A DNA stretch of 33,045 nt from positions 1-33,045 of the forward strand of contig JAJTXZ010000054.1 of the NCBI GenBank assembly GCA_021463195.1, in the 5' to 3' direction. The DNA is from Anaerolineae bacterium (GTDB taxonomy: Bacteria; Chloroflexota; Anaerolineae; UBA4142; SHND01). A model generated the notes under the pieces. It had not been told where the DNA came from, did not search any database, and saw only the letters and a list, made by a program, of their open reading frames with translations. Made by a program: the position numbers and the translations under genes. The stretch's first letter is position 1, and each line of letters begins with the position of its first letter. Shown in pieces: positions 4,101 to 25,161 of this stretch.

Positions 4101-4193
4101 CTGGTGATTACCCAGAGTTCCAAACCCCAAGGGTTTTCGAAAACCCTTGGGGTTTGGAATTCCGCTACGTTTTCGAGAGGTGAGTAACCGCCA
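4101..4193 (+). mobile_element. Palindromic miniature element, family 1, copy A
   Basis: This 93-nt element is flanked by the 8-bp direct repeat AATTTTAT (4093-4100 and 4194-4201), read as a target-site duplication. It starts CTGGTGATTACCC and ends GAGTAACCGCCA, which are imperfect terminal inverted repeats. Its centre (4118-4159) is a perfect 42-nt palindrome with GGGTTTTCGAAAACCC in the middle. The right duplication touches the TGA stop (4201-4203) of the minus-strand membrane gene. It encodes no protein, so it would have to be moved by a transposase in trans. Confidence 0.8.
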
Positions 4194-12703: not shown

Positions 12704-12742
12704 CGCGTGGCAGCGTATCGGACAAACTACAAAAGTTTTTTG

Positions 12743-12781
12743 AGGATTACCCACATCTCGAAAACGTAGCGGATTTCCAGA
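12743..12781 (-). mobile_element. Truncated copy C of palindromic element family 1
   Basis: GATTACCCACATCTCGAAAA followed by CGTAGCGGATTTCCAGA matches the reverse complement of the right half of copy B (about 25088-25156), with one difference in this stretch. The central palindrome and the other end are missing, and no target duplication is visible. It is one of the few recognisable items in the 12640-12954 gap, together with the hairpin at 12680 and the holB -10 box. Confidence 0.7.
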
Positions 12782-20532: not shown

Positions 20533-20586
20533 ATTTCATTTTTGAAATTCGGCGCGGCGATAGCGACGCGACGCGAATTATTCCAC

Positions 20587-20667
20587 TCATGTTACACGTT
20601 GGCACGCCAAATTTGAAATTTGGCGTACGTTTGCGCGCTATCTTATAGGACAGGCGCGTAACGTGGA
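20587..20667 (+). mobile_element. Palindromic miniature element, family 2, copy 1
   Basis: This 81-nt element aligns without gaps to copy 2 (22183-22263). Shared parts are the ATGTTA start, the GCAAATTTGAAATTTGC-type core (here GCCAAATTTGAAATTTGGC), TGCGCGCT and the end GCGTAACGTG. TTATTCCAC (20578-20586) and TTATTTCAT (20668-20676) flank it as an imperfect 9-bp duplication. The right one contains the TAA stop of the PHP gene (20668-20670, minus strand). Confidence 0.78.
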
Positions 20668-21510
20668 TTATTTCATTTGCGCTTTTGCTTGTTTCAATTT
20701 CTCGACCGCCGCAAGCGGCACATTCACTTCGCCTAATGCGCTCATGTGACCCATGCGATGCAGACCATGAAAATCGCTGCCGCCCGTGGCAATCAAACCA
20801 TATTGTTTAGCCAGATCAACTAATTCCCGCCGCTGCGGTTCAGCATATTGCGCGTAATAACATTCCAAGCCGACGAGTCCAATCTCGACCAATTCGGGAA
20901 CAATACGCTGCGCGTCGTACGGATGCGCGAGGACGGGGACGGCGCCGACCGCGCGAATCATTTCCACCGCTTGCCGCGGCGACGCGCTTTCGTATGCCAC
21001 ATACGCTGGTTTGTCACTGGCGAGATATAGGTCGAACGCTTCTTGCACCGTCGCCACATGGCCCGCCTCTACCAACGCGCGCGCGACGTGCGGTCGTCCG
21101 ATGGCAGCGTCACCCGCGATTGCCGCCACCTTGTCAAATTCAACCGCAACGCCGAGCGCGTCAAGTTTGGCGAGAATTTTTTGCGCGCGCCCCAAGCGAC
21201 CCTCGCGAAATTTATCCGCCAACGCAATCGTCGCGGCGTCGGTATAATCCACCAGATAGGCGAGAACATGAATCTCGCGTTTTTCCCAATCGGTTGAAAA
21301 TTCGACCGCGGGGACGATTTCAATATCGTCATGCTGACGCGCGGCGGCGACCGCGCGCTCCAAGCCCGCAATCGTATCATGGTCGGCGATGCCGAGATAG
21401 GCAACGTCGCGCGCGCGCGCGATTTGAACCAGTTCTTCGGGGGAATGCTCGCCGTCGGACGCGTTAGTATGCGCGTGCAAATCAATGCGCGAATTTGTTT
21501 TGGGCACCAT
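20668..21510 (-). CDS. PHP domain phosphoesterase (TrpH/YciV-like)
   Basis: This 280-residue metal-dependent phosphatase of the PHP family resembles 3',5'-nucleoside bisphosphate phosphatases and RNase AM. The metal ligands are visible as DLHAHTNASDGEHSP (about 11-25), GIADHDTI (about 40-47), PAVEFST (about 65-71), VLAHPYD (about 194-200) and GGSDFHG (about 244-250). GGAG sits close to the ATG. It lies 91 nt downstream of spoVS on the same strand, at the end of the recA-recX-rny-spoVS series, which fits a role in RNA-derived nucleotide turnover. Its stop codon lies in the duplicated target of a palindromic element. Confidence 0.88.
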   Translation of the reverse strand: MVPKTNSRIDLHAHTNASDGEHSPEELVQIARARDVAYLGIADHDTIAGLERAVAAARQHDDIEIVPAVEFSTDWEKREIHVLAYLVDYTDAATIALADKFREGRLGRAQKILAKLDALGVAVEFDKVAAIAGDAAIGRPHVARALVEAGHVATVQEAFDLYLASDKPAYVAYESASPRQAVEMIRAVGAVPVLAHPYDAQRIVPELVEIGLVGLECYYAQYAEPQRRELVDLAKQYGLIATGGSDFHGLHRMGHMSALGEVNVPLAAVEKLKQAKAQMK

Positions 21511-21934: not shown

Positions 21935-22182
21935 GTGATATGTGACTCCCTACAACAAATCCATCCCAAACCACGCGGAACAAATGACACAAAGCATAAA
22001 GAGCGCTTGCGACATGCGTCTAACGCACGCCGTTGGGATAGTGTTGTTACGCCGATGAAATACCGCGACCAAATCAGACGCGCCGCATCGGATTTGACTT
22101 TGTGTCACGGAACGCGCGAGTATCTTACAGCGCTATGCTTATTGTGGCATAAATAATGTATTAGATTTTGCCTTTTATTAAC

Positions 22183-22263
22183 TGATGTTATGCAGCCGTA
22201 CGGCAAATTTGAAATTTGCCGTACGGCTGCGCGCTCTTTTTTAGCGAATGTGCGTAACGTGAG
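22183..22263 (+). mobile_element. Palindromic miniature element, family 2, copy 2
   Basis: This 81-nt element is flanked by the perfect 8-bp direct repeat TTATTAAC (22175-22182 and 22264-22271). Its core is a near-40-nt palindrome, GCAGCCGTACGGCAAATTTG and its complement, centred on GCAAATTTGAAATTTGC. It lies 15 nt beyond the rny stop codon, with one duplication in between. It occupies the 345-nt gap between rny and spoVS. The rest of that gap (21935-22174) shows no gene or clear promoter. Confidence 0.82.
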
Positions 22264-22278
22264 TTATTAACGCGCTCT

Positions 22279-25066: not shown

Positions 25067-25161
25067 CCTGGTGATTGCCCGGATTTCCAGACCCTATGGG
25101 TTTTCGAAAACCTTTAGGGTCTGGAAATCCGCTGCGTTTTCGAGATGTGGGTAATCACCAG
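25067..25161 (+). mobile_element. Palindromic miniature element, family 1, copy B
   Basis: This 95-nt element has near-perfect 13-14 bp terminal inverted repeats (CCTGGTGATTGCCC at the left, GGGTAATCACCAG(G) at the right) and a 50-nt imperfect hairpin (25081-25130) around GGTTTTCGAAAACC. GAACCGT occurs at both ends (25060-25066 and 25162-25168) as a 7-bp target duplication. It shares the segment TTTTCGAGA with copy A and the ATCTCGAAAACG stretch with copy C. Confidence 0.85.

Follow-up and report, generated by a model that had tools for sequence, protein, structure and literature searches.

A non-autonomous transposon (MITE) family in Anaerolineae: shared ends with a likely helper transposase and block changes in its hairpin arms

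Introduction

What is the short palindromic sequence lying between rny and spoVS in an uncultured Anaerolineae, what moved it there, and how did the arms of its hairpin come to pair perfectly? The window, that is the whole stretch of DNA analysed (33,045 nucleotides), belongs to genome G000, a MAG available as a 4.72-Mb draft (98% complete, 143 contigs). An earlier note on this DNA had described an 81-bp mobile element bordered by a perfect 8-bp duplication, and had taken paired changes in both arms as a sign that the hairpin itself is selected. From the analysis reported here, it is highly probable that the element is a MITE moved in trans by an IS4/IS701-type transposase, its perfect arms most likely reflecting template-switch copying rather than selection acting site by site.

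Boundaries and organization of the element

The element lies downstream of rny, 8 bp from its stop codon, and upstream of spoVS; both genes are on the minus strand. The placement between these two genes, already proposed, is borne out by Pfam matches to RNase_Y_N/KH/HD and SpoVS. The octanucleotide TTATTAAC is indeed found exactly at both 22175-22182 and 22264-22271, with 81 bp in between. However, the alignment of copies sets the ends otherwise, so that the boundary is a perfect 7-bp duplication, TTATTAA, and the element, starting with C, measures 82 bp (22182-22263). The last base of the left octanucleotide, C, already belongs to the inverted repeat, of which it is the first base, and its counterpart at 22271 agrees by chance; the 8-bp reading was thus rejected. 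The equal length of the two copies in the window holds, both having 82 bp. The features are as follows.

20578-20585, no strand: left target duplication of copy 1, TTATTCCA
20586-20667, plus strand: copy 1, the other 82-bp MITE of this family in the window, located at the 3' end of a PHP-domain gene (copy alignment)
20668-20675, no strand: right target duplication of copy 1, TTATTTCA (8-bp duplication, 7/8 match to the left one)
22175-22181, no strand: left target-site duplication of copy 2, TTATTAA (exact repeat and copy alignment)
22182-22263, plus strand: copy 2, the 82-bp MITE, aligned with 48 other near-full-length copies of the same genome
22182-22193, plus strand: left terminal inverted repeat CTGATGTTATGC (family consensus CTSAYGTTACGC; pattern search and copy alignment)
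22192-22230, plus strand: hairpin 1, a perfect 19-bp palindrome around AAATTTGAAATTT (pairing and covariation analysis, fold)
22232-22246, plus strand: hairpin 2, CGCT...AGCG with a T-rich loop (pair counts, 59-bp variant)
22252-22263, minus strand: right terminal inverted repeat CTCACGTTACGC, in minus-strand reading (pattern search)
22264-22270, no strand: right target-site duplication of copy 2, TTATTAA (exact repeat and copy alignment)

The element is short, non-coding, without a gene of its own, and present in many copies. Its terminal inverted repeats, CTGATGTTACGC/CTCACGTTACGC, are imperfect (CTGATGTTATGC/CTCACGTTACGC in aligned form). As single-stranded DNA it folds with an energy of -26.6 kcal/mol (z -7.5), and a covariance-model search of the window brought no Rfam family to threshold. 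Hairpin 2 is dispensable, since a 59-bp variant without it (G000:C93:30413) keeps a TTATTAA duplication.

Two further observations concern other parts of the window. At copy 1 (20668-20675), the pre-insertion frame of the PHP-domain gene, read with a crude gene caller, runs about 52 bp further, and the insertion may have supplied this gene with a new TAA stop. Besides, repeats at 4101-4193, 25068-25160 and about 12730-12781 (minus strand), called family 1, form a different MITE. With other ends (CTGGTGATTACCC) and 8-bp duplications (AATTTTAT and GAACCGTC), family 1 was probably moved by another transposase.

Copies in the host genome and target sites

About 40 near-full copies were found in the host genome by BLAST, and more with a covariance model; 49 near-full-length copies were extracted. 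Exact matches to CTSAYGTTACGC number 51, against zero for a reversed-pattern control. Perfect duplications of 7 bp flank 21 of the 49 copies, while 3 copies have 6-bp and 1 has 8-bp duplications. When right flanks were shuffled among copies 5000 times, the mean number of perfect 7-bp duplications was 0.97 and the maximum 6. This excess over shuffled flanks confirms a mobile element with target-site duplication. As a comparison set, 49 pairs of terminal inverted repeats were chosen blind to their flanks, 48 from congeners and one from a lake MAG; 29 of them have perfect 7-bp duplications (0.87 on shuffling, maximum 7).

The site preference at which the earlier note had hinted is real. The collected host copies give the motif T (27/29), T (16/29), A (25/29), N, T (24/29), A (22/29), A (27/29), or TTA-N-TAA, and the congener and lake MAG pairs show the same motif. 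A 5-bp duplication around an 84-bp element (ACT...AGT) was also considered. In CTGGTCA, TTATTGG and TTAAAGT, unusual substitutions of the first T or of the last A are duplicated on both sides. Because these rare bases are duplicated, the length is fixed at 7 bp and the 5-bp reading is excluded. The duplication length is thus constant at 7 bp, with a few cases of 6 or 8 bp.

Genomic context

The spacer downstream of rny is found without the element in four congeners, in three of which the start of spoVS is also seen. The insertion is therefore specific to the host lineage. Gene calls came from a crude codon-based caller, for which the window (84% coding) served as training set, and are approximate. 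By these calls the element favours spacers between genes, where 46 of the 49 empty sites fall (p 3e-33 against 16%).

It may be asked whether the element acts on its neighbours rny and spoVS, either by terminating transcription on one strand or as a regulatory RNA. On the plus strand, the hairpin followed by a T-run is the best-scoring terminator-like site between 20500 and 22400, and the gene pairs flanking the copies are convergent in 10 cases and divergent in 2 (p 0.04). This surplus of convergent pairs could also come from selection against insertions that disrupt promoters. However, rny and spoVS are both transcribed from the strand opposite to the terminator-like one, copies beside co-directional genes show no strand preference (11 versus 15, p 0.56), and the four congeners do without the element at this spacer. 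Owing to the opposite strand and the absence of orientation bias, the terminator role was rejected, and we hold a function of this type to be very improbable. Separately, a stretch of the spoVS leader (21935-22100; L206, L208, L209, L210) is partly kept across congeners, with CAACAC..CCC / TTGGG(T/A)TG. This leader is possibly structured, a quick fold predicting a short stem with little energy.

Ends shared with autonomous insertion sequences

In congeners, the same terminal inverted repeat and 7-bp duplication delimit MITEs of 97-491 bp whose interiors are unrelated. The same ends bound a 1.1-1.2-kb insertion sequence in one congener and in the lake MAG. In the congener, G004 (Anaerolineae bacterium isolate SJ719), contigs break inside a 1.18-kb element having one 356-aa ORF, with ends ACTCACCTTACGCA / ACTCACGTTACGCA and terminal inverted repeats CTCACCTTACGCA/CTCACGTTACGCA. 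One insertion is split over two contigs, whose left and right halves have TTACTTA in common. The encoded transposase scores 343.6 bits with NF049921 (IS701_2, cut-off 250), also matches DDE_5 and DDE_Tnp_1, and carries the full Y-2-R-3-E-6-K motif (YQKRWNVEPYHKSLK), read from its sequence. In the lake metagenome bin CAIXPS010000570, a transposase 61% identical to that of G004 sits between ends identical at 14 of 14 positions (CTCACGTTACGCAG), with the target-site duplication TTACTTG. Ends and duplication length are common to the MITE and to these two autonomous insertion sequences; the shared sequence is limited to the 12-14 bp of the ends.

A helper encoded in the host assembly was rejected, searches of G000 with PF01609, with the IS701_2 model and with the G004 protein all being without a match to a transposase of the G004 clade. 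We infer that the helper was lost from the host or is missing from the draft assembly. The likely helper transposase is encoded by a related species. In the proposed mechanism, an IS4/IS701-type DDE transposase would recognize the 12-14-bp end CTSAYGTTACGCA, move the MITE in trans and produce a duplication of 7 bp (occasionally 6 or 8 bp) in TTA-N-TAA targets; the window copy would have been moved in this way by an enzyme of the G004 type. Plasmid records gave no match to the insertion sequence. A literature search with the end sequence returned only two incidental string matches, and no publication on MITEs in Anaerolineae was found.

The same ends also carry two other palindromic cargoes, ATCCTGTTAATCCTGTC and TGTCATTTCGA (L107, L106, L048; L108, L114, L132), hence the interiors behave as exchangeable modules. 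Moreover, L049 (G000:C67:86194-86367) and L185 are composites of MITE halves and other palindromes, a family-1-like one in the case of L185.

Another conceivable origin is that of the REP/REPIN repeats, which are moved by a RAYT (Y1 tyrosine transposase). A GTAG tetranucleotide is seen in the arm of many copies, and Y1_Tnp genes occur in the host as well as in all five congeners. Nevertheless, the core palindrome and the terminal inverted repeat are absent from all eight Y1_Tnp loci examined, for which reason this origin was rejected, and the copies have perfect 7-bp duplications and inverted repeats at both ends. Target duplications together with terminal inverted repeats at both ends are hallmarks of DDE transposases. 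Movement by a RAYT is accordingly scarcely credible.

Origin of the paired changes in the hairpin

The exchange of GCC/GGC for GGC/GCC around AAATTTGAAATTT, noticed between the two copies of the window, is real (pair 22/38). Selection on base pairing, in RNA or DNA, would make such changes classical compensatory substitutions, and several observations go in this direction. Of the pairs between the 11-bp outer arms, 69% are Watson-Crick; reshuffling the arms among copies lowers this share to 60%, so that covariation is above chance (z 7.6). Hairpin 2 also covaries (z 2.8), 11 pairs show double changes, and the central AAATTT core is paired in 96% of cells. On the other side, covariation is absent from the stem formed by the terminal inverted repeats (z -0.4, host copies), and the variant lacking hairpin 2 still transposed. 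RNAalifold applied to the full element predicts only 15 pairs with little covariation energy. Arms diverging without compensation in other copies, which the earlier note had named as speaking against a selected hairpin, are largely what is observed: in 39 of the 49 copies at least 2 pairs of the 11-bp arms depart from Watson-Crick pairing, with positions 15, 16 and 20 affected repeatedly.

The way in which mismatches disappear is more informative. Among 45 distinct arm haplotypes, pairs 15/45 and 16/44 are both unpaired in 31 and both paired in 12, the two intermediates being represented once each; the two pairs thus share their state in 43 of 45 (Fisher 5.7e-9). Five different combinations of bases lead to the paired state, and either arm may be the one repaired. 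Furthermore, 6 of the 10 copies with the best pairing have one arm that also occurs, unchanged, in imperfect copies, facing another that is its complement or nearly so. The right arm is the repaired one in L009, L013, L046 and L047, the left arm in L018 and in the window copy. In the latter, the right arm is that of the imperfect copies L011 and L012, whereas the left arm, AGCCGTACGGC, differs from theirs, AGTGGTAGGGC, at three positions, all now complementary. The arms of the imperfect core read AGTGGTAGGGC / GCCGTACGGCT. The left arm of hairpin 1 in the window copy thus appears to have been corrected to match the right one.

Since neighbouring mismatches are either lost jointly or kept jointly, and since most repaired copies preserve one arm and carry its complement as the other, template switching fits the paired changes better than selection on each pair, as far as sequence comparison can tell. 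In this reading the imperfect hairpin is inherited, whereas the perfect arms of the window copy most likely come from arm-to-arm copying during a template switch in replication. Template switching is able to mimic compensatory selection (PMC8794818). The excess of pairing over chance is real, yet the mismatched majority of copies, the block changes with almost no single-site intermediates and the reuse of arms speak against the proposal that paired changes reveal a selected hairpin. Selection on arm pairing is not needed to explain the covariation, and we regard it as unlikely to be what maintains the hairpin, although it may have acted together with template switching.

The core palindrome outside the element

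G000 holds 65 core palindromes, some of which lack terminal inverted repeats. The cores without these repeats often lie directly 5' of a ribosome-binding site and ATG and follow another conserved hairpin (TTGCCCAT..CATTGGCT..AGCCAATGaaaATGGGC); one such two-hairpin unit precedes the gene at G002:C26:24014. With a model of this other hairpin alone, 16 matches are obtained in G000, 13 in G001, 7 in G002, 39 in G005, 4 in G003 and 0 in G004; neither the hairpin nor the two-hairpin unit corresponds to an Rfam family. Cores of the two-hairpin units carry the same asymmetric mismatch as the MITE, GTAGGGC/GCCGTAC (G005, G003) or GTAGGAC/GTCGTAC (G005), and the ACATTT flank is common to both. On account of this mismatch and flank, the two cores are probably homologous. 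It may tentatively be imagined, though we lean against it, that a cis-regulatory leader hairpin, belonging to a two-hairpin unit near start codons, was captured as the MITE core. If so, the transposase end-pair spreads regulatory RNA modules, or else the leader units are relics of such elements.

The two-hairpin units lie outside the window (L211:270-390, L218:283-400, L222:283-400, L223:285-405, L230:298-500, L247 and L232, in G000, G001, G002 and G005), with 0-39 per genome across the genus and tandem arrays of roughly 90 bp in G005 and G001. Several hold AGGAG...ATG followed by a 9-codon frame (e.g. MSRWLTRSQ*), which may merely reflect the stem sequence.

Comparison with known systems

The family resembles the MITEs derived from bacterial insertion sequences (PMC10969869), such as Coxiella QMITE2 with its 7-9-bp duplications, in being short and without coding capacity, in its terminal inverted repeats, target duplication and stem-loop fold, in its AT-rich intergenic insertion and in having ends shared with an insertion sequence. 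It differs from them in that only the 12-14-bp inverted repeat is common with the insertion sequence, and in that the inside consists of interchangeable palindromic modules rather than of an internally deleted insertion sequence. It is well supported that this is an undescribed family of a known kind.

The partner insertion sequence shows the 7-8-bp duplications, AT-rich targets, 5'-CT ends and complete YREK of the IS4 subgroup ISPepr1 (PMC2266710). It is shorter, about 1.13-1.18 kb versus 1.5-1.6 kb, and the ISPepr1 end consensus YT-AA-YTT fits only partly. The best curated model for its transposase is IS701_2 (NF049921), by which NCBIfam names it IS701 family, above cut-off; the IS4_4 model gives 94 bits, below its cut-off. 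By definition, IS701 members make duplications of exactly 4 bp and mostly lack the YREK tyrosine (PMC2266710), whereas the partner makes 7-bp duplications and has a full YREK. In duplication length, CT ends and YREK, the partner fits ISPepr1 better than IS701 as originally defined.

As for the arms, quasipalindrome correction and template-switch mutations (PMC8794818, PMC7202029) likewise remove several arm mismatches together by copying one arm onto the other. The present case differs in extending across dispersed copies of one transposon family and in being deduced by comparing them.

Conclusions

An undescribed MITE family of Anaerolineae thus gains a likely helper transposase, an exact duplication length and a target motif. 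Covariation in mobile hairpins can come from template switching, and five independent block repairs make the equation of covariation with selection testable. Finally, the core shared with two-hairpin units, which often precede start codons, suggests that palindromic modules are exchanged between transposons and regulatory regions.
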